64,000 nucleotides of DNA. Origin: Vogesella margarita (GTDB lineage Bacteria; Pseudomonadota; Gammaproteobacteria; Burkholderiales; Chromobacteriaceae). The notes under the pieces were generated by a model. The model saw nothing but the letters and a program-made list of their open reading frames with translations. It made no database searches and had not been told where the DNA came from. The position numbers and the translations under genes were made by a program. Shown one piece after another: positions 27,656 to 37,121 of the stretch (positions are counted from its first letter, which is position 1; the number at the start of each line of letters is the position of its first letter). Where the stretch lies: assembly GCF_028548475.1 (NCBI RefSeq), contig NZ_JAQQLE010000003.1, positions 124,001 through 188,000 on the forward strand, given 5' to 3'.

Positions 27656-28999
27656 TCAGACAGCCCCCTCGGCGCGCAGCACCCGCTCCAGCGCGGCAAA
27701 GCACTCCGCGTCGATGGCGCTGTGCAGGTGCTGGCGCATGATGTCCAGCGTTTTAGCCACCGGCGTGGCCGGGTGGTAGGGGCGCTCGGCGTTGATGGCG
27801 TCGAAGATGTCGGCGGTGGTGATGATGCGGGTTTCCAGCGTGATCTGCTCCGCTCGTAGCCCGCGCGGGTAGCCGCTGCCGTCCAGTTTTTCGTGATGCG
27901 CGCCGGCCACCTGCGCCAGCTCGGCAAACTGCGTGATGCGACGCAGGATATCCTCGGTGTAGCCGGCATGGCGCTGCACCGCCGCCCATTCGTCGCCATC
28001 CAGCCGCCCCGGCTTGTCGAGAATGGTATTGCTCACCCCAAGCTTGCCCACGTCGTGCAGCAGCGCGCCACGCTTCAGCCAGCGCCGGCGCGCGGCATCC
28101 ATGCCCAGCTCGGCGGCAATGCGGTCGGCGTAATGCCCCACGCGCTGGCTGTGGCCAGCGGTGAACGGGCTCTTGGAGTCCACCACCTGGCCAAAGCCTT
28201 CGGCGATTTCGTCCAGATAATCCTCGTCCAGCGGCACCATGCAATGCGCCGGTTCCAGCGCCAGCACCGCCGTATCGATATCGTCGGCCTCCAGCTGCTG
28301 CCAGAACGCCGCGTTGTCGCGCAGGCTATGCACCACGCGCACCAGCGCGGGGTCGAACCAGCCACTCGCGCGCGTCGCCACCTCGGCCAGCGCCGCCTGG
28401 CGGCCGTGGGTGATGTGGAACACATCCAGCACCTGCGCCAGCAGCGCGATGCGGGCATTCAGCGGAATCGCCTCGCCCTGCAGGCCCAGCGGGCGGCCGG
28501 AGCCGTCCCAGTGCTCGTCCAGCGACTGGATGCCGCGCGCCACGTTTTCATTGAAGCGCAGCTGGCGGGCGATATCGGCCCCGCGGTGGCAGCGGGTGTT
28601 GATCAGCTCGTCCGCCATCTCCTTGCCGTGGCGCAGCACATTGAGGATGGATTTCACACGCTGCGGCCAACTGCCGGCATGGGTGCCGGTGTTGCTGAAC
28701 ACGAAGCCCAGCATCTGCGGCAGGCTGGCGCCCACCAGTTTGAAATCCTGCTTGAACTGCCGATCGTCGGTGAGATACAGCTCGCAGATGCGCGACGCAT
28801 TGCTGCTGCAGCCCAGGTCTTTCAGCAGGATGGCGTAGTACAGCTCCCACAGCTGCTGCTCGTTCAGGCCGATGGCGGTGCCGATGTGCATGCCGATCCA
28901 GCAGCTGCGGATGCAATGCCCTTCCGGCTGGCCTTCGGTGATGTCCAGCGCGTAACTGAGCGAGCTGATGAGTTCCGACAGTTTCAGGGTGGTGGCCAT
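27656..28999 (-). CDS. HD-GYP domain protein with a degenerate first HD domain
   Basis: Cytoplasmic protein of 447 residues with two HD-type modules. The second (about 270-440) has intact HD-GYP signatures HSQRVGHY, LLHDVGKLGV, HHEKLDGSGYPRGL and TADIFDAINAERPYHP, so it probably hydrolyses cyclic di-GMP. The first (about 15-200) keeps the fold outline (DEHWDGSGRPLGL) but has LLKDLGCSS where the HD pair should be, so the catalytic histidine is lost and it may act as a sensor or dimer module. There is no receiver or membrane segment. Cyclic di-GMP control of motility is plausible but unproven. Confidence 0.88.
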   Translation of the reverse strand: MATTLKLSELISSLSYALDITEGQPEGHCIRSCWIGMHIGTAIGLNEQQLWELYYAILLKDLGCSSNASRICELYLTDDRQFKQDFKLVGASLPQMLGFVFSNTGTHAGSWPQRVKSILNVLRHGKEMADELINTRCHRGADIARQLRFNENVARGIQSLDEHWDGSGRPLGLQGEAIPLNARIALLAQVLDVFHITHGRQAALAEVATRASGWFDPALVRVVHSLRDNAAFWQQLEADDIDTAVLALEPAHCMVPLDEDYLDEIAEGFGQVVDSKSPFTAGHSQRVGHYADRIAAELGMDAARRRWLKRGALLHDVGKLGVSNTILDKPGRLDGDEWAAVQRHAGYTEDILRRITQFAELAQVAGAHHEKLDGSGYPRGLRAEQITLETRIITTADIFDAINAERPYHPATPVAKTLDIMRQHLHSAIDAECFAALERVLRAEGAV

Positions 29000-29028: not shown

Positions 29029-29048
29029 TGCGGCCAACGTTGGCCGCA
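29029..29048. repeat. Head-to-head pair of the repeat (20-base perfect palindrome)
   Basis: TGCGGCCAACGTTGGCCGCA is two repeat cores fused without a spacer, 30 bases upstream of the HD-GYP start. Confidence 0.9.
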
Positions 29049-29191
29049 CGACAATGCCGTGCAGGATGCGATAAAAACGGCAGCGGCGATAGCCATCGGC
29101 AAGCCGGCTTCCATAGAAAACCCGTAATGCATCAAACACAACCGCCATCTGCCGGACATCCGCAACGGCACGACAGACGGTGCCGCGCCGA

Positions 29192-30370
29192 CTAAACACC
29201 CGCCACGCCGGCCTCCCCCGCCAGCGCCAGCCTGGCCAGCTCGGCAAAGTAACGGGCGCCGGTGGTCAGGATGGCATCGTTAAAGTCGTAGCCCGCGTTG
29301 TGCAGCGGCGTCGCGCCCGCCTCGCCGGCGATGCCGTTGCCGATGAAGATGAAATTGCCCGACACCTGCTGCAGGAAGGCACCGAAGTCTTCGGAAATCA
29401 TCATCGGCGTCACGTTGTCGTCCACCTGCCGGCTGACTGTTTTCGCCGCCGCTACCGCCAGCGCCACGTACTCGGGCGAGTTCACGGTCGGGGCAAATTC
29501 GTGGGTGTAGCTGAATTCGCAGAGGGCGCCGTGGGCGCGGCAGATGCCTTCGGCCAGCTCCCGCATGCGTCTGGCGAGCAGCGCCTGGATGTCCGGGCTG
29601 TAGCTGCGCGTGTCGCCGCGAATCACCACCTCGGACGGAATCACATTGCGCAGGCCGTCGGTGACGAACTCGGTGCAGGACACCACCGCCGGCTGGCTGG
29701 GGTCCACGTTGCGCGATACCACCGTCTGCAGTGCCAGCACGATTTCGGCACCGATCACCAGCGGGTCGATGCCCATGTGCGGCCGCGCGGCGTGCGTGCC
29801 GCGGCCGTGGACGCGGATAACGAAATTGTCCTCGCTGGCCATGATGCCACCAGCGCGGGTGGCGAAGCTGCCGGCCGGCATGCCCGGCATATTGTGGGCG
29901 CCGAAGATGGCGTCCACCGGAAAGCGCTCAAACAGCCCGTCCGCCATCATTGCCTTGGCGCCGCGACCGTGCTCCTCAGCCGGCTGGAAGATGAAGCGCA
30001 CGGTGCCGTTGAAGTCGCGCTGCTCGCTCAGCAGCCGCGCCGCGCCCAGCACCATGGCCATGTGGCCGTCGTGGCCGCAGGCGTGCATCTTGCCGGCGGT
30101 GCAGGAGGCATGCGCGCGTTCGGGCACGTTCTCCTGGATGTGCAGCGCGTCCATGTCGGCACGCAGGCCGATCACCGCCGCGCCGTCGCCGGCCCTGAGG
30201 TTGGCGACAATGCCGGTGCCGCCGATGCCGGTGTGCACCTCCAGCCCCATGTCGCGCAGCTGCTGGGCGACAAAGGCGGCGGTGTTCACCTCCTCGAAAC
30301 CGGTTTCCGGGTGCCGGTGCAGATGGTGGCGCCAGGCCACCAGCTGTTGTGACAGTGCTTGTTCGGACAT
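29192..30370 (-). CDS. M20D-family amidohydrolase (hippurate hydrolase-like)
   Basis: Zinc-dependent amidohydrolase of 392 residues related to hippuricase and N-acyl-amino acid deacylases. It has the RHHLHRHPETGFEE start, the metal-binding HACGHDGHMAM motif, and a C-terminal half with GIAGEAGATPLHNAGYDFND. The ATG at 30370 has GGAGGAG 6-7 bases upstream; the open frame upstream to 30526 is not translated. It is last in a three-gene operon after the diaminopropionate ammonia-lyase, suggesting it deacylates a related amino-acid conjugate. The exact substrate is unknown. Confidence 0.88.
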   Translation of the reverse strand: MSEQALSQQLVAWRHHLHRHPETGFEEVNTAAFVAQQLRDMGLEVHTGIGGTGIVANLRAGDGAAVIGLRADMDALHIQENVPERAHASCTAGKMHACGHDGHMAMVLGAARLLSEQRDFNGTVRFIFQPAEEHGRGAKAMMADGLFERFPVDAIFGAHNMPGMPAGSFATRAGGIMASEDNFVIRVHGRGTHAARPHMGIDPLVIGAEIVLALQTVVSRNVDPSQPAVVSCTEFVTDGLRNVIPSEVVIRGDTRSYSPDIQALLARRMRELAEGICRAHGALCEFSYTHEFAPTVNSPEYVALAVAAAKTVSRQVDDNVTPMMISEDFGAFLQQVSGNFIFIGNGIAGEAGATPLHNAGYDFNDAILTTGARYFAELARLALAGEAGVAGV

Positions 30371-30392
30371 GTTGTCTCCTCCGGTAAGCGGC

Positions 30393-31613
30393 TTACTGTG
30401 CATGATCGGCCAGCCAGCGTGCCTGGCGTTTGGCCACACTGCTGGCCGACTCCCCGACCAGCGCCTCGTACACGCCGGGTGCGGTGGCGCCTTCGGTGTT
30501 GACCACCAGCACCCGCGACTGAGCATTCAGCCCGACCGCCGTACGCCGGGCCGGGTCCGCGGCCAGCACCTGCAGTCCGGCCAGACCGGCGGCGCCGGAT
30601 TCGCCGGCGACGACGGGCACGTCGCGCGGCGAGCCTGCGGCCAACGTTTGCATCGCGCGCACCGCGTCGTCGTCATGGATGGTGAGGAAATCGTCGATCG
30701 CCTGCTCCAGCACCCGCCATGCCAGCGGCGAGGTCTCGCCGCAGGCAAGGCCGGCCATCACCGAATCCACCGAGCCGGCGGCGCGGGCGGCGCCCCCCTG
30801 CAGCGCACTCTGGTACAGGCAATCGGCCTGCTCCGGCTCCACCACGATGAAGCGCGGGCGCTGCTCGCCGTAGTGCTGCCACAGGTAGCTGGCCAGCCCC
30901 GCCGCCATGCCGCCGACCCCGCCCTGCAGCAGCACATGGGTGAACGGCTCGGCCTGCTGCACGTCCAGCTGCTCGATGATCTCGGCGGCGATGGTGCCGT
31001 AGCCCTGCATCACGTCGCGCGGGATGGCCTCGTAGCCGTCGTAGGAAGTATCGGACACCACGTGCCAGCCGTGCGCTGCGGCCAACCTCGCCGCCTCGGT
31101 CACCGATTCGTCGTAGTTGCCGCTGATGCGCACGATACGCGCCCCGTAGGCGGCGATGGCGTCTTCGCGCTCCGCGCTGACGTGAGCGTGCAGCACGATC
31201 ACGCACTGGCAGCCCACGGTCTGGGCGGCGGCGGCCAGCGCGCGGCCGTGGTTGCCGTCGGTGGCGCTGATCACGGTGATGCCGCTGACCTGGCCGCGAT
31301 TATTGCCGCTCAACAGCTGCGCCGGGTCCAGCGCCGGATTCAACCGTGCCAGCAGGCGGATCAGCGCGGCCGGCGCGCCCAGCGCCTTGAAGCTGCCAAG
31401 CTCCGAGCGGAAGGATTCGTCCTTGACCGCCAGTTGTGCGATGCCCAGGCGGCCGGCCAGCTCCGGCAGCCGCCACAGCGGCGTGGCCTCGCGGCTCAGA
31501 CGCTGCCACGGCGCCAGCCAGCGGCGGCTCTCATCGGCGGCGCGGATATTGAGGATGGTTTGCAACGAGTCGGGGTAGGCACCGTGATTGGCCTTGGGGT
31601 TGTGGGTCAGCAT
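30393..31613 (-). CDS. Diaminopropionate ammonia-lyase-like PLP enzyme
   Basis: PLP-dependent fold-type II lyase of 406 residues, similar to DpaL/YgeX, which converts 2,3-diaminopropionate to pyruvate and two ammonia. It shows the PLP lysine in ELGSFKALG, the TDGNHGRALA loop, the GGVGGMAAG phosphate-binding glycines, and the NTEGATAPGVYE C-terminal signature. It lies between two M20 hydrolases. Related serine/threonine dehydratases are the main alternative, but the NTEGAT end favours DpaL. Confidence 0.85.
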   Translation of the reverse strand: MLTHNPKANHGAYPDSLQTILNIRAADESRRWLAPWQRLSREATPLWRLPELAGRLGIAQLAVKDESFRSELGSFKALGAPAALIRLLARLNPALDPAQLLSGNNRGQVSGITVISATDGNHGRALAAAAQTVGCQCVIVLHAHVSAEREDAIAAYGARIVRISGNYDESVTEAARLAAAHGWHVVSDTSYDGYEAIPRDVMQGYGTIAAEIIEQLDVQQAEPFTHVLLQGGVGGMAAGLASYLWQHYGEQRPRFIVVEPEQADCLYQSALQGGAARAAGSVDSVMAGLACGETSPLAWRVLEQAIDDFLTIHDDDAVRAMQTLAAGSPRDVPVVAGESGAAGLAGLQVLAADPARRTAVGLNAQSRVLVVNTEGATAPGVYEALVGESASSVAKRQARWLADHAQ

Positions 31614-31658
31614 ATGCAGGGTCTCCGGGGCAATGGTCGGAATGAATGGGATAGCGGG

Positions 31659-32915
31659 TCAGGCAAGCAGGCGCTTGAGCACGACATCGAGCAGCACCTG
31701 CGCCCCCTGCAGCAGCTGGGCGTCGTCGGTGTGTTCGCGCGGGTTGTGGCTGATGCCACCGTGACTGGGGACAAAAATCATCGCGGCGGGCGCGATGCGG
31801 GCGATCATCTGCGCGTCGTGGCCGGCGCCGGAGGTCATGCGCAGGCAGCTCAGGCCACGGGCGGCGGCAGCCTGCTCGACCTCGGCCACCAGCGGCTCGG
31901 CAAACGGCACCGGCTCGAAACGGGCCAGCCGTTCGCTATGGATACGAACCTGTTCCTGCTGCTCCAGCTCCACGAGGTAGTCGCGCAGCGCCTGCTCGGC
32001 CGCCTGCAGCCGGCTTTCGTCCGGGTCGCGCAGGTCTACCGTCAGCTGTGCCTTGCGCGGAATCACGTTGATCAGGTCCGGCTCGAAGTGCAGCGAGCCG
32101 ACGGTGGCCAGCGTGGTACCGGACTGCACCGCCAGCTGGCGCACGAAGGTAACGATGGCAGCAGCGGCGAAGCCCGCATCGTGGCGCAGGTGCATCGGCG
32201 TGGTGCCGGCATGGTTGGCCTTGCCCTGGATGGTCAGCTGCTGCCAGGAGATGCCCTGCAGGTTGGCCACCGCGCCAATCTGCACGCCTTCGGCCTCGAG
32301 CACCGGCCCCTGCTCGATATGCAGCTCCAGGTATTCGTGCGGCACGATGCTGCCCGTGGCCAGCTCGCCGGCGTAGCCGATGCGTAGCAACTCGTCGCCC
32401 AGGCGCGTGCCATCGGTGCCGATGCTGTCCAGCGCCGCCTGCAGCGGCAGGCCACCGGCGTGCACCAGCGAGCCCATCATGTCCGGCTGGTAGCGCACGC
32501 CCTCCTCGTTAGTGAAGGCGGCCACGGTGATCGGACGGGACGGCAGCACGCCCGCCTGGCGGAAGGCGCGCACCACGGCCAGACCGGCCAGCACGCCGTA
32601 GCAGCCGTCCAGCGCACCTGCGCTTTTTACCGTATCGATGTGCGAGCCCAGCATCAGCGGCCGGGCATCCGCACCAACGTTGGCCGCAAGCAGGGTGCCG
32701 AAGATATTGCCGATCTGGTCGATCTGGACGATGAGTTCTAGTTCCTGCATCCAGCGCACCAGCTGGTCGCGGCCGGCTTTTTCGGCATCGGTCAGCGCGA
32801 TACGGGTGCGACCGCCCGATTCCGGCTCGGCACCAATCTCGCCTAGCGCCCGGATCTGGCGCAGCAGGGTGTCGCCATCGAGGGGCAGTGTGTCCATCCG
32901 TGGGGTCAGCAGCAT
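31659..32915 (-). CDS. M20 family N-carbamoyl/allantoate-type amidohydrolase
   Basis: Zinc amidase of 418 residues of the hydantoinase/carbamoylase family (allantoate amidohydrolase, L-carbamoylase, ureidoglycine-type enzymes). Motifs: GSHIDTVKSAGALDGCYGVLAG, FTNEEGVRY, HIEQGPVLE, the substrate-binding GKANHAGTTPMHLRHDA and a C-terminal GAGHDAQ. The ATG at 32915 has a GGAG 7 bases upstream; the reading frame continues open to 33059 but that would overlap the divergent regulator. It is first in the operon beside an Lrp-type regulator. Confidence 0.9.
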   Translation of the reverse strand: MLLTPRMDTLPLDGDTLLRQIRALGEIGAEPESGGRTRIALTDAEKAGRDQLVRWMQELELIVQIDQIGNIFGTLLAANVGADARPLMLGSHIDTVKSAGALDGCYGVLAGLAVVRAFRQAGVLPSRPITVAAFTNEEGVRYQPDMMGSLVHAGGLPLQAALDSIGTDGTRLGDELLRIGYAGELATGSIVPHEYLELHIEQGPVLEAEGVQIGAVANLQGISWQQLTIQGKANHAGTTPMHLRHDAGFAAAAIVTFVRQLAVQSGTTLATVGSLHFEPDLINVIPRKAQLTVDLRDPDESRLQAAEQALRDYLVELEQQEQVRIHSERLARFEPVPFAEPLVAEVEQAAAARGLSCLRMTSGAGHDAQMIARIAPAAMIFVPSHGGISHNPREHTDDAQLLQGAQVLLDVVLKRLLA

Positions 32916-33058
32916 GTTTCGTCTCCAGAGGGCCAGCATAAGGGCGGGCCAGTAGCGAAATAATATTGCTGAACAGCCGTGAATTTTTCTTGATAATTGG
33001 GGATTGATAGCAAAAATATTGCGTTTATGTACAGACAGCTGCAAACGGGAGCAAAGCA

Positions 33059-33532
33059 ATGAACAACCAGCTAGATAGCTATGATCTGAGACTGCTGGCG
33101 GCGATCCAGCAAGACGCGCGCACGCCGCAGAACGAGCTGGGCGAAGCGGTGAACCTTTCCACCGCCGCGGTGAACCGCCGCCTCAAGCGGCTGGGAGAGG
33201 AAGGCGTGATCGAGCGCTACACCGCGGTGATCGCACCGGATGCCGTGGGCTACGGGCTGACCATCATCGCCACGGTGGAAGTGGAAAGCGAGCAGATCGA
33301 CCAGCTGGACGCGACCCGCCGCACTTTCACCGCCTGCCCGCACGTGCAGCAGTGCTACTACACCGCCGGCGAGTGGGACTTCGTGCTGGTTTTCGTGGTG
33401 CAGCACATGGAGCAGTACAACGAGCTAACCCGCAAACTGTTTTTCGGCAACGCCAACGTGAAGCGCTTCAAGACCCTGGTGGCAATGAGCCGCGACAAGG
33501 TGGGCCTGACGCTGCCGCTAGGAGAGGACTGA
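33059..33532 (+). CDS. Lrp/AsnC family transcriptional regulator
   Basis: Regulator of 157 residues with an N-terminal HTH (DLRLLAAIQQDARTPQNELGEAVNLSTAAVNRRLKRL) and a C-terminal RAM ligand-binding domain. It is divergent from the M20-lyase-M20 operon with a 143-base shared upstream region, so it most likely controls that operon in response to an amino-acid-like ligand. No clear operator was picked out. Confidence 0.92.
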   Translation: MNNQLDSYDLRLLAAIQQDARTPQNELGEAVNLSTAAVNRRLKRLGEEGVIERYTAVIAPDAVGYGLTIIATVEVESEQIDQLDATRRTFTACPHVQQCYYTAGEWDFVLVFVVQHMEQYNELTRKLFFGNANVKRFKTLVAMSRDKVGLTLPLGED

Positions 33533-33569
33533 TCGTGGCGGCGGTTCACGCCGGCATTGGACTGCCCCA

Positions 33570-34406
33570 CTACACCGTCACCTCCCCCCACAGCTGCTCG
33601 ACGATCGCTTTCAGCTGCAGCGACTCCTGCCAGCGGTCGGTGATGTCCAGCCCGTCGGCGCCGGTGATGGCATACGGCGCCGGCCCCAGCTCGCAGGTGA
33701 AGCTCAGCGTATCGTCCGCTAGCGCGCGGGCGCGCCAGCTGTGCATGCCGTAGCGCCACCAGTGCTGGAATTGCTGCAGCCACGGCTGGTGCTGGGCAAA
33801 GCGCAGCGGCACCTGCACCTGATGACCGTTGGACACCCGGCCGTGAAACCCCCAGCTGTGATCCAGAATGGTGTGCATCTGTTGCTGGTCTAGCGCCGCC
33901 GGCGGCAGCGGCAGTTCGCGCGCCACCACGTAGTGCGACAGGTCGGCCAGCAGCTTGAGGTTGGGCAGCTGCTGCAGCACGTCCAGCGTGAACAGCAGGT
34001 CGTTGGTCAGCCGGTAGCGGTGGGTTTCCACCAGTACCGGAAAATCCACCTGCTCCGCCAGCCGCTGCCAGCCTTCCAGCACGCGGATCGCCTCGCGCAG
34101 CGTGCGCGGGCGCAGGTCGGCCTGGATGGTGATGTGGTGGCAGCCGAATTCGCTGCCCAGCTCCAGCGCCGGCTGCAGGCCGTCGATGTCGGTCGGGAAC
34201 ACCTGGCCTTCGGCCTGCAGACCCAGCTCTCTGGCAGTCGCCGCCAGCCGCTGTACGTGCGCGCGCTGGTAGTAGTGGTCGGTAAAGCCATCGAAGCCGG
34301 CGGCGGCCAGCTGCTGCAGGTTGTCCTCCACGCTGGCGGTGTGGCCGTGGGGATGGATGCGCTCCATCGCCCACATCGATTGAAAGATCAGCAACTGCTT
34401 AGACAC
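33570..34406 (-). CDS. Sugar phosphate isomerase/epimerase-like TIM barrel, last gene of moc-like operon
   Basis: Protein of 278 residues of the xylose-isomerase-like TIM-barrel superfamily. Metal-site candidates are PVLVETHRYRLTND, LLADLSHYV and ILDHSWGFHGRVSNGHQVQV. It overlaps the reductase gene by 8 bases and ends the operon mocD-mocE-mocF-TIM. In rhizopine catabolism MocC is also a TIM-barrel protein of this class, so a role in converting the demethylated cyclitol is plausible. The reaction is unknown. Confidence 0.75.
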   Translation of the reverse strand: MSKQLLIFQSMWAMERIHPHGHTASVEDNLQQLAAAGFDGFTDHYYQRAHVQRLAATARELGLQAEGQVFPTDIDGLQPALELGSEFGCHHITIQADLRPRTLREAIRVLEGWQRLAEQVDFPVLVETHRYRLTNDLLFTLDVLQQLPNLKLLADLSHYVVARELPLPPAALDQQQMHTILDHSWGFHGRVSNGHQVQVPLRFAQHQPWLQQFQHWWRYGMHSWRARALADDTLSFTCELGPAPYAITGADGLDITDRWQESLQLKAIVEQLWGEVTV

Positions 34407-35646
34407 TGGCCACTCCTTTGAGCAGGGATTTCAGGCTGCTGGCCGGGTCGGCCAGCGCGGCGGCGGGCAGCGGCTTGCCGCTGCGGATCAGCATCTCCGC
34501 CAGCTTGATGTCGCGGGCGATGCTGTTGTCGGCGCCCCAGCCGCAGGCGCCCTGCAGCCGCTCCGCCGCATCGAGGTAGAACAGCAGCAGGCCGTCATCC
34601 GGCAGCGCGCGGGTCACACAGTTGGCCGCAGCCTGCAGCTGGCCGGCCAGTTGCAGGCTGTGGTCGAACTGGTCGGACCAGAACCACGGCAGCGCGGCAT
34701 AGGCGTCGTCGGCGCCCAGCAGGCTGCGCGCCACGTGGCGGCCCTGTTCCTCGGCATTGCGCCAGGTTTCCAGCCGCTGCGGCTGGCCACTGACGGGGCA
34801 GGGAAACTCGCAGGCATCGCCCACCGCGTAGATGTGCGCATCGCTGCTCTGCAGTCGGCTGTCGACGCGGATGCCGTTGCCCACCGCCAGCCCGGCGGCG
34901 GCGGCCAGCTCGGTGTTGGGCTGGATGCCGATGCCCACTACCACCGTGTCGCAGGCCAGCAGCTCGCCATCGGCCAGCTCCACCGCGCTGACGCTGCCAT
35001 CGCCGCGAAAGGCCGCGATCTGGCAGCCAAGGCGCACTTCCACGCCGCGCGCCCGGTGCAGCGCCAGCAGCTTGGCGGAAATCAGCGGTGGCAGCGCGCG
35101 TGCGGCCAACCTGTCGCCGGCTTCCAGCACGGTGACCTGGCAGCCCTGCTGACGCGCACTGGCGGCCACTTCCAGGCCGATGAAACCGCCGCCGACCACC
35201 ACCAGCCGCTGGCCGGCCTGCAGCCGTGGCCGCAGTGCGGCGGCATCGTCCAGCGTGCGCAGCAGCTGCACGCCGGCGAGATCGGCACCCGGCAAGCTGG
35301 CCTGGCGTGCACGACCGCCGGTGGCCAGCAGCAGCTGGTGATAGGGCAGCGTGCGGCCATCGTGCAGGGTGATCTGGCGCTTGGCCGGGGCAATGGCGCT
35401 GACACGGGTGGCGCTCAGCCGCTCGATGGCCAGCGTCTGGTACTGCTCGGCGCTGCCGATGTGGCAGGCGTCCGCCGGCTGGCTGTCCAGCAGCAGTTGC
35501 TTGGACAGCGCCGGACGTTCATACGGCAGGTGCGGCTCGTCGCCGATCAGCAGCAGCTGCCCGGCGTAACCCTGTTCGCGCAGGGCCAGCGCGGCGCGGC
35601 CGCCGGCATGGCCGGCGCCGACGATGATGATGGGGGCGGTATTCAT
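34399..35646 (-). CDS. NAD(P)/FAD ferredoxin reductase, MocF-like
   Basis: Reductase of 415 residues that should pass electrons from NAD(P)H to the adjacent Rieske ferredoxin. It has an N-terminal FAD motif IIIVGAGHAGGRAALALREQG, a second dinucleotide motif VVVGGGFIGLEVAASARQQG, and the HIYAVGDACEFP flavin motif with C-terminal reductase domain, like rubredoxin/Rieske ferredoxin reductases. The ATG at 35646 is chosen because the FAD motif begins 4 residues later. Next to the MocE and MocD homologues it fits MocF. Confidence 0.88.
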   Translation of the reverse strand: MNTAPIIIVGAGHAGGRAALALREQGYAGQLLLIGDEPHLPYERPALSKQLLLDSQPADACHIGSAEQYQTLAIERLSATRVSAIAPAKRQITLHDGRTLPYHQLLLATGGRARQASLPGADLAGVQLLRTLDDAAALRPRLQAGQRLVVVGGGFIGLEVAASARQQGCQVTVLEAGDRLAARALPPLISAKLLALHRARGVEVRLGCQIAAFRGDGSVSAVELADGELLACDTVVVGIGIQPNTELAAAAGLAVGNGIRVDSRLQSSDAHIYAVGDACEFPCPVSGQPQRLETWRNAEEQGRHVARSLLGADDAYAALPWFWSDQFDHSLQLAGQLQAAANCVTRALPDDGLLLFYLDAAERLQGACGWGADNSIARDIKLAEMLIRSGKPLPAAALADPASSLKSLLKGVASV

Positions 35647-35659
35647 GGCGCGGCTCCGT

Positions 35660-35980
35660 TCAGGCGTCGGCCAGCGCAATCCACACCCGGCCGCCTTCCA
35701 GCTTCACCGGGTAGGTCTGCAGGTTCACGCATACCGGCGCGCCCAGCGCCTTGCCGCTGCGGTAGTCGAAGCGGCCGTTGTGCTTGGGGCATTCGATGAT
35801 GTGGTCCATCACCAGGCCGTCGGCCAGATGCACCTTCTCGTGGGTGCAGGTGCCGGCGGTGGCGTAGAACTGGTCGTCCGGCGCGCGGTAGATGGCATAG
35901 GTGCGGCCGGCGTGGTCGAAGCGCAGCACGTCTTCCTGCTCGATGTCGTCGACATCACAGGCGTTGATCCATTGGCTCAT
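35660..35980 (-). CDS. Rieske-type ferredoxin, MocE-like
   Basis: Small [2Fe-2S] ferredoxin of 106 residues. Cluster ligands lie in CTHEKVHLADG and CPKHNGRFDY (CxH...CxxH). The overall sequence closely resembles rhizobial MocE, from the starting MSQWINACDVDDIEQEDVLRF to the AHPVCVNLQTYPVK-like end (here APVCVNLQTYPVKLEGG). GAGGAG lies about 7 bases before the ATG. It lies between oxygenase and reductase genes, so it should be the electron carrier of a three-component oxygenase. Confidence 0.88.
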   Translation of the reverse strand: MSQWINACDVDDIEQEDVLRFDHAGRTYAIYRAPDDQFYATAGTCTHEKVHLADGLVMDHIIECPKHNGRFDYRSGKALGAPVCVNLQTYPVKLEGGRVWIALADA

Positions 35981-36035
35981 GATGGGGCTCCTCTGTGTTG
36001 GCGGCGCCGGCGCTGGCCGGCACGGTTGTCTGGGG

Positions 36036-37121
36036 TCAGGCGTAGCTGCGGACGGCTTCAGGGTTGGCCGCAACGTTGTGGCTGGCCGGCAGTGGCGGCA
36101 GCTGGCGCGGGATGGTGTAGCCGGGGTCGCTGCGCTGGCGCCACAGCGCCGGGATGATCTCGCGGTAGGCGTGCAGCAGGCCGGGGTGGGCCGGCGGGCA
36201 TTGCTCCTGGATCAGCGCGTGCAGCTTGGGCAGGTTGTAGAACGGCACCATCGGGAACATGTGGTGCTCCACGTGGTAGTTCATCTTCATGTACAGGAAG
36301 GCGAACAGCGGGTTGAAGATCACGGTGCGGGTGTTCAGGCGGTGGTCCAGCACGTCCTCGGCGAGGCCAGCGTGCTGGGTGATGTTGAACACCTGGGTCA
36401 GCGGCGAGCCGTAGAAGCGCGGCAGCACCACGAACATGGCCGGCAGGATGCTGCCGCTGTAGATGCAGGCGGCGATGGTGGCGGCAAAGATCAGCGTGTG
36501 CACCTGGCTGGAGCGGATCATGCGGCCGATTTCCGACGCCGGCACGAAGGAGCGGGTGGCGCTGCTCACGCTGCCAAAGGCGTGGCGCACGGTGCGCGCC
36601 AGCTCGATGCTGCCGGACTTGAGGAAGAAGAAATCGGCCAACAGCCCGGCCAGTTTTAACGGGCGCGGAAAGGCGATTTCGCGGTCGTTGCCGACGATGA
36701 TGGTGTCGGTGTGGTGGCGGGCGTGGCTCCAGCGCCAGAACACGGTTTCATGCAGAGCCAGGAAGGAGGTGAGCTGGAAGAAGAAGGTATTCAGCCAGCC
36801 GGTGCGGAACGGCGTGCCGTGCGACAGCTCGTGCGAGCCGTGCTCGCCGGCGGCATACAGCAGGCCGTACAGCAGGAAGGCCGGCACCGCCCACGGCGTG
36901 CCCCAGGCGTGAAAGGCCAGCACGCCGCTGCCGATCAAGAGCGCCAGCCAGCTGCCCAGGTATTTCAGCGCCTGCCAGTCGTCGCGCTGCATCAGCTGTT
37001 TCATGGTCTTGCGGTCTACCTGGCAGGCAAACCACTGTGCCGATACCAGGCCGCGCGCGGCGGCCTGCTGGCCGCAGGGGCCATCGAGACTGTAGTCCCG
37101 GATTTGCTTGTTATCCATCAT
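36036..37121 (-). CDS. MocD-like membrane diiron oxygenase (fatty acid desaturase fold)
   Basis: Integral membrane protein of 361 residues. It has the three histidine clusters of desaturase/hydroxylase diiron enzymes: HGSHELSHGTPF, WSHARHHTDT and YHVEHHMFP, with ITQHAGL between the last two, and several hydrophobic helices. In Rhizobium, MocD with MocE and MocF demethylates the rhizopine 3-O-methyl-scyllo-inosamine. Here it leads a mocD-E-F-TIM operon divergent from a LacI regulator. Two adjacent ATGs (37121, 37118) are possible. A fatty-acid role is the alternative, but the neighbours argue against it. Confidence 0.82.
   Translation of the reverse strand: MMDNKQIRDYSLDGPCGQQAAARGLVSAQWFACQVDRKTMKQLMQRDDWQALKYLGSWLALLIGSGVLAFHAWGTPWAVPAFLLYGLLYAAGEHGSHELSHGTPFRTGWLNTFFFQLTSFLALHETVFWRWSHARHHTDTIIVGNDREIAFPRPLKLAGLLADFFFLKSGSIELARTVRHAFGSVSSATRSFVPASEIGRMIRSSQVHTLIFAATIAACIYSGSILPAMFVVLPRFYGSPLTQVFNITQHAGLAEDVLDHRLNTRTVIFNPLFAFLYMKMNYHVEHHMFPMVPFYNLPKLHALIQEQCPPAHPGLLHAYREIIPALWRQRSDPGYTIPRQLPPLPASHNVAANPEAVRSYA

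Follow-up and report, generated by a model that had tools for sequence, protein, structure and literature searches.

The 64,000-nucleotide stretch of Vogesella margarita contig NZ_JAQQLE010000003.1 analysed here (the window) contains a conserved cluster of four genes, in which a DpaL-family lyase is flanked by two different M20-superfamily amidases and the three enzyme genes are divergent from a gene for an Lrp/AsnC-family regulator. On balance, this operon probably serves the regulated salvage of capped 2,3-diaminopropionate (DAP), a hydantoinase/carbamoylase-type amidase (CARB) and an M20D-type amidase (called M20A in the window operon) acting as parallel inputs to the lyase under the divergent Lrp. 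Each enzyme family is already known; the substrates proposed below for the combination, like the ligand of the Lrp and the direction in which it regulates, are predictions from sequence. The cluster is real and more coherent than the first-pass annotation could show, and a scheme of parallel inputs takes the place of the sequential one suggested there.

On the minus strand the gene order is CARB, lyase and M20D enzyme, with gaps of 45 bp and 22 bp, and 143 bp separate CARB from the Lrp gene, which runs in the opposite direction. All four genes are real and open. Gene order and family models bear out the first-pass annotation in setting two different M20-superfamily amidases on either side of a DpaL-family lyase, with a divergent Lrp/AsnC gene, and its end points (29192-33532) are right. 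Two gene starts are shifted: for CARB, from the TTG at 33059 given in the list of open reading frames (ORFs) to the ATG at 32915, which has a purine-rich leader, and for the M20D gene, from 30526, inside the lyase gene, to the better ATG at 30370, which follows GGAGGAG.

By family model, fold and motif, the lyase is a predicted diaminopropionate ammonia-lyase, and matches this enzyme better than any other lyase listed. It passes NF006058 (diaminopropionate ammonia-lyase; 499.8/276 bits, family-model scores being given as bits/cut-off and those of CARB and M20D being for their longer ORFs) and TIGR01747 (286.6/274 bits), and fails the YgeX-type model TIGR03528 (318.7/532.25 bits). The top matches of a PDB search were the E. 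coli and Salmonella diaminopropionate ammonia-lyases (4d9g, E=1.5e-71). With the AlphaFold model of the lyase (mean pLDDT 90.4), Foldseek ranks 1-14 were all chains of these enzymes, the last at an E-value of 1e-31 versus 1e-20 for the next match, a threonine deaminase. Residues K76, D119, H122, D188, C265 and C291 are invariant in an 81-row alignment (from which the L034 row was dropped and in which L069 is included twice), and align with K77, D120, H123, D189 and the cysteine pair of the E. coli enzyme (EcDAPAL), of which we take K77 to be the lysine that binds pyridoxal phosphate (PLP) and D120 the catalytic Asp of the TDGNHG motif. This motif is present in all 89 rows of a lyase tree and in 10/10 distant plasmid rows. 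Fold, TDGNHG, Lys, both Asp and the Cys pair are thus shared with EcDAPAL (4d9g) and Salmonella DpaL (5ygr), although the lyase is only 33-37% identical to them in structural alignments and falls below the YgeX-type model. A RidA gene is present in the Vogesella genome, unlinked to the operon; in Azospirillum brasilense it belongs to the lyase cluster, together with a gamma-glutamyltransferase (GGT) gene.

CARB passes TIGR01879 (380.8/204 bits) and is the sole member of its family found in the Vogesella genome (E<=0.001). Residues H92, D103, E138, H199 and H390, which we take to be the metal ligands, are invariant in 38 rows. Among the 50 structure-search matches listed for its AlphaFold model (mean pLDDT 83.8), the highest TM-score was with the N-carbamoyl-beta-alanine amidohydrolase RrCbetaAA (8c46, rank 14 by E-value). 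The residues binding the carbamoyl and carboxylate groups in that enzyme, given as Glu131, Gln196, His385 and Arg291 in passages of its structural report (PMC10952681), are E137, Q202, H390 and R296 in CARB, likewise invariant in the 38 rows, the pairing being counted by hand along the alignment (numbering offset 6). CARB therefore shares the fold (TM 0.92/0.94) and the ligand residues of RrCbetaAA, but is 39% identical to it in the structural alignment and has a C-terminal motif of allantoate-amidohydrolase type. This motif, SGAGHDAQ...PS..GISHNP.E.T, is common to CARB and E. coli allantoate amidohydrolase, and three other chains compared lack its Q and NP. Both GHDAQ and SHNP.E.T occur in 38/38 CARB rows; among six distant CARB proteins, GHDAQ is found in all six and the full SHNP.E.T in three (L163, L165 and L166). 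Because the ligand residues of RrCbetaAA are kept together with the C-terminal motif of an allantoate amidohydrolase, the substrate of CARB is likely a ureido compound. It would come from outside the cell, since no allantoinase exceeds the cut-off in the Vogesella genome (25.5/357.85 bits) and no D-hydantoinase match is found there (E<=0.001). The first-pass annotation had named two plant amino acids as candidate substrates, albizziine and N-oxalyl-diaminopropionate. The former, which is 3-ureidopropionate with an alpha-amino group, would suit the CARB family: a ureido substrate of albizziine type is chemically apt, and passages of PMC12507026 describe a precedent in which an M20 hydrolase together with YgeX converts albizziin to pyruvate. 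Nothing was found pointing to N-oxalyl-diaminopropionate in particular.

The second hydrolase, M20A, passes TIGR01891 (350.5/153.75 bits). Its closest specific models, CpsA and DoeB2, are both below cut-off (312/550 bits for the DoeB2 equivalog NF038260), and its nearest solved chain is Bacillus subtilis YxeP (1ysj, E=2.6e-71). No YgeY-named model was among the matches listed for either hydrolase (13 of 13 and the best 25 of 26). Our best guess is that M20A deacylates an N-acyl diamino acid.

We examined the conservation of the cluster in the best 80 of 350 lyase relatives, chosen by the lyase alone; these loci are not independent, many being close relatives and two (L056 and L102) lying in one genome. 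Neighbours were counted with a tblastn panel within 6 kb of the lyase, hits having to cover >40% of the query and to exceed set identity thresholds; the panel was used because greedy ORF clustering gave shadow ORFs in GC-rich DNA. An Lrp gene (>=40% identity) lies near the lyase in 75/80 loci and at least one of CARB and M20D in 72/80, M20D being found in 55 and CARB in 37. Both hydrolases are present in 20 loci, M20D only in 35, CARB only in 17 and neither in 8. Other neighbours are a LivK-type binding protein (18/80), an APC permease (9), a PRK07079-type M20 protein (7) and an ABC permease-ATPase (5), and, more rarely, an STP-type transporter (4), GGT (4), an M24 hydrolase (3) and a solute-binding protein (SBP, 3). 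The same protein panel has no hit in 28 loci of other PALP enzymes taken as controls, which have short flanks (99 kb in total).

Genomes with a single hydrolase at the lyase locus rarely have the other one elsewhere. An ortholog being defined as >=60% identity at E<=1e-100 in a whole-genome search, the 34 searched of the 35 M20D-only genomes gave a CARB ortholog in only two (71%) and a weaker relative (49%) in one; 32/34 are without a CARB ortholog, two of them (L039 and L042) having a CARB fragment. Conversely, an M20D ortholog was found in one of the 17 CARB-only genomes (74%) and relatives of 49-50% in two others, leaving 16/17 without an ortholog, one of them (L060) with an M20D fragment. 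The panel scored these three fragments as absent, as it did a 42% M20D relative in L047, and the fragments suggest that some hydrolase absences are recent losses or assembly faults. In a tree of 89 lyases, of which 22/86 inner branches are poorly supported, the hydrolase labels are clustered yet often changed (29 changes, against a minimum possible of 8 and a shuffled mean of 44.6). The two hydrolases are thus probably alternatives acting in parallel, not in series, and the counts of single-hydrolase genomes argue against the successive removal of an acyl and a carbamoyl group from one conjugate, as first annotated.

The regulator has both a helix-turn-helix (HTH) and a ligand-binding domain (HTH_24, 60.3/21.9 bits; AsnC_trans_reg, 54.3/25 bits), and its predicted binding site recurs in the divergent target promoter. 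An operator-like motif within 2 mismatches of GCAATANTATTGC was found in 33 of 68 divergent promoters (those of 67 loci plus the window's; dinucleotide-shuffle mean 0.7). This supports an operator without proving one, as the promoters counted had also supplied the motif and come from related loci. Its distribution is uneven with respect to the gene facing Lrp: lyase, 26/36; CARB, 6/24; M20D, 1/6; LivK, 0/2. In the window promoter, where CARB faces Lrp, it is represented by GCAATATTTTTGC (1 mismatch) and GCAATATTATTTC. The operon is probably regulated by its own Lrp. No RNA elements were found in the window at gathering scores. A scan for sigma-70 promoters and terminators round the operon found two plus-strand sites resembling promoters (shuffle mean 0.7) and one resembling a terminator (shuffle mean 2.9), which were not used.

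In the pathway that we propose, CARB would hydrolyse the ureido group of a ureido-DAP, which we would guess to be 3-ureidoalanine (albizziine) or one of its isomers, to give DAP, CO2 and ammonia, and the M20D enzyme would remove the acyl group of an N-acyl-DAP as a second, parallel input. The DpaL-type lyase would then convert DAP, by way of 2-aminoacrylate, to pyruvate and two ammonia, and the divergent Lrp may sense DAP or a precursor and bind a GCAATA-N-TATTTC-like operator.

Besides the origin and unevenness of the promoter motif, several observations weigh against this proposal. CARB scores just short of the cut-offs of two subfamily models named allantoate amidohydrolase (NF006771, 398.2/399 bits; NF006769, 418.7/452 bits) and one of its relatives passes such a model (406.9/399 bits), so that the substrates of CARB may be allantoate-like. 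Allantoate use as such was considered and rejected, as CARB fails the AllC equivalog model TIGR03176 (242.6/597.75 bits) and no allantoinase is over cut-off, the two broader models being only narrowly missed. D120 of EcDAPAL is the base for the D isomer, so that its conserved equivalent in the lyase is alone no proof of beta-amino recognition. M20D enzymes are broad aminoacylases. Finally, some lyase relatives sit with GGT, a Ser/Thr-type transporter and a TauE/SafE-annotated protein, a setting that also fits a sulfur amino acid.

The last of these points belongs to a different explanation, which we consider unlikely, namely that the enzyme acts as a beta-lyase on beta-substituted alanines other than DAP, cysteine S-conjugates above all, and that GGT, a dipeptidase, a deacetylase and the lyase form a salvage route for glutathione conjugates resembling that of mercapturates. 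GGT and the STP-type transporter (4/80 each) and the PRK07079 M20 protein (7/80) do occur near the lyase, and on a Klebsiella pneumoniae IncR plasmid (L157, 9753-15285) a lyase 67% identical to that of the window, an STP-type transporter, GGT and a TauE/SafE-annotated protein are consecutive. Moreover, YxeP and an N-alpha-acyl-glutamine aminoacylase are among the solved structures closest to M20A; these enzymes act on N-acyl cysteine or glutamine conjugates. However, such a route leaves CARB unexplained, though present in 37/80 loci and 7/12 distant ones, and even the Klebsiella locus keeps a CARB remnant (63 aa, 84%); the closest matches of the lyase, besides, are diaminopropionate ammonia-lyases.

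Two further explanations retain DAP as the intermediate and differ in how the hydrolases act. That both serve in sequence on one doubly capped conjugate, as first annotated, or form the last part of a reductive urate degradation that passes through 2,3-diureidopropionate, would agree with E. coli, where YgeX acts after the loss of two ureido groups (passages of PMC12507026), with the presence of both hydrolases in 20/80 loci and with their arrangement in order on two Rhizobium plasmids. We regard it as very improbable, since most single-hydrolase genomes are without an ortholog of the other hydrolase, and in the Vogesella genome SsnA stays below cut-off (174.5/455.5 bits) and D-hydantoinase has no match; reductive urate degradation in this genome was rejected on the same absence of SsnA and of a hydantoinase (HyuA). 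It is also improbable, to our mind, that CARB and M20A are isofunctional replacements cutting the same capped DAP. The two do substitute for each other across loci, and ureidases occur in different M20 groups (YgeY, as described in parts of PMC12507026), but both are kept in those same 20 loci, and the APC permease accompanies only two-hydrolase loci among the 80 (9/9), which hints at distinct substrates; a Paraburkholderia sabiae plasmid, on the other hand, carries the permease with M20D and no CARB.

The parallel-input scheme has partial precedents. Hosts of the window-type operon are presumably aerobic, unlike the setting of E. coli ygeY-ygeX. As excerpts of two reports have it, albizziin is converted to pyruvate by YgeY and YgeX in the reductive urate pathway of E. 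coli (PMC12507026, PMC12990295). The ygeY-ygeX pair likewise joins an M20-superfamily hydrolase to a diaminopropionate ammonia-lyase, with a ureido-DAP intermediate (albizziin) and pyruvate as product, whereas the lyase described here falls below the YgeX-type cut-off and the regulator is an Lrp. The ectoine doe genes with their AsnC/Lrp-like doeX (passages of PMC7192451) offer the same deacetylase action on an N-acetyl diamino acid and a regulator of the same type, and some relatives of the window operon share M24 hydrolases and EhuA/B-like ABC transporters with them. For instance, a Paraburkholderia locus (L036, 2397-11885) contains Lrp, an ABC transporter, two M24-type hydrolases that are DoeA-like but below cut-off, the lyase, M20D and a PRK07079 M20 protein, and recalls an ectoine-type operon. 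The window-type cluster differs in having a lyase in place of the transaminase, and the DoeB2, DoeA and EutB models are below cut-off. No published description of a lyase-carbamoylase-M20D-Lrp cluster was found in the titles and abstract openings of the papers listed, drawn mainly from outside subscription journals.

The cluster is also found on plasmids. The lyase matches 133 plasmid records, of which 16, some unannotated, were examined. Twelve distant loci were chosen, with a lyase 45-51% identical to that of the window: 10 of these plasmids and, with short flanks, 2 of the 4 distant matches of the 369-genome draw given below. The lyase has CARB next to it in 7 of the 12 (one CARB being partial), M20D in 5 and Lrp in 7; in two Azospirillum loci all three are absent. 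On plasmids of Rhizobium beringeri and Rhizobium sp. Pop5, genes for the lyase, a Zn-dependent hydrolase and an M20 aminoacylase are consecutive with overlapping ends and Lrp upstream, the R. beringeri Lrp being in two unannotated pieces. The cluster is carried by pSYMBR3459, from a Mimosa flocculosa isolate, where the M20D gene matches as two overlapping pieces, and by a plasmid from a nodule isolate of Mimosa caesalpiniifolia. A P. caribensis plasmid (L158; lyase 58.7%), belonging to neither the 80 nor the 12 loci, has a distant Lrp (48%), a partial M20D and no CARB, and an Aliiroseovarius locus includes an Xaa-Pro (M24-type) peptidase and a racemase. According to parts of PMC4417242, a DAP ammonia-lyase, a hippurate hydrolase and an L-PSP protein of Neorhizobium galegae are specific to symbiovar orientalis and lie at most 30 genes downstream of nodE. 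Term searches within root-exudate transcriptome papers gave nothing on the lyase, a P. phymatum nodule paper has no passage on DAP, and a Sinorhizobium meliloti competitiveness paper lists DAP ammonia-lyase only as a table entry.

In Vogesella, the lyase is present in 2/13 genomes, and that of V. alkaliphila is 94% identical to that of the window. Only 4.3 kb, the four-gene unit, is shared (91% identity) between the window and a 17-kb V. alkaliphila locus (L031), and the equivalent slot in V. alkaliphila (L148, 2964-9406) holds 6.4 kb of unrelated genes, for which ORF translations suggest, by eye, the candidate labels HipA-like, aldehyde dehydrogenase, aminotransferase and LysR. Since other genes occupy it there, the slot is a variable chromosomal site; in genome G004, its two flanks are ~90 kb apart. 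Among 369 genomes drawn evenly from the class, five match the lyase (E<=1e-90), the window's own and four at 41-50% identity. The first-pass annotation had linked the operon to plant-cyclitol genes next door, a link that we discard: of the five adjacent window genes tested, none is found close to the lyase in the 80 loci, and in V. alkaliphila the desaturase-like gene is ~48 kb away. A link to the adjoining rhizopine-like genes is likewise rejected on the 80-locus panel and the slot breakpoints.

The neighbouring genes at 33570-37121 (minus strand) encode a MocE-family ferredoxin (TIGR02377, 178.3/136.15 bits), a ferredoxin reductase, a fatty-acid-desaturase-like protein, whose gene occurs in 5/13 Vogesella genomes, and a TIM-barrel protein; we take them to resemble rhizopine (moc) catabolism genes. 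Bordering the slot on the other side is an HD-domain protein (27656-28999, minus strand; HD_5, 157.9/27.2 bits), presumably of HD-GYP type. A palindromic repeat, GCGGCCAACGTTGGCCGC, at 29030-29047 has many short matches on both strands across Vogesella genomes.

Table 1. Coordinates in the window of the four-gene cluster, its divergent promoter region and the slot that it fills.
Feature	Position	Strand	Description
CARB	32915-31659	-	418 aa; M20-superfamily Zn amidase, hydantoinase/carbamoylase group; proposed ureido-amino-acid (albizziine-type) hydrolase
Lyase	31613-30393	-	406 aa; DpaL-family PLP lyase; proposed 2,3-diaminopropionate ammonia-lyase
M20A	30370-29192	-	392 aa; M20D-type amidohydrolase (aminoacylase); proposed N-acyl-diaminopropionate deacylase
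Lrp/AsnC-family regulator	33059-33532	+	157 aa; divergent from the three enzyme genes
Divergent promoter region	32916-33058		143 bp; two operator-like sites, GCAATATTTTTGC and GCAATATTATTTC
Variable chromosomal slot	29135-33562		filled here by the operon; blastn breakpoints

The salvage of capped DAP by this operon would assign a catabolic role to the annotated diaminopropionate ammonia-lyases of many soil and plant bacteria, and the linked hydrolases point to testable DAP precursors. It is possible, although we regard it as rather doubtful, that CARB represents a dedicated, undescribed family of ureido-diaminopropionate (albizziine) hydrolases, part of an oxygen-tolerant route with swappable deblocking enzymes and one lyase, which would let plant-associated bacteria, including Mimosa-associated Paraburkholderia with the cluster on a plasmid (in one case a plasmid named as a symbiosis plasmid), use legume non-protein amino acids. 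If albizziine is a substrate, genes on Mimosa-associated plasmids would be tied to a legume non-protein amino acid, and the operon would be an aerobic counterpart to the final steps of gut urate breakdown.

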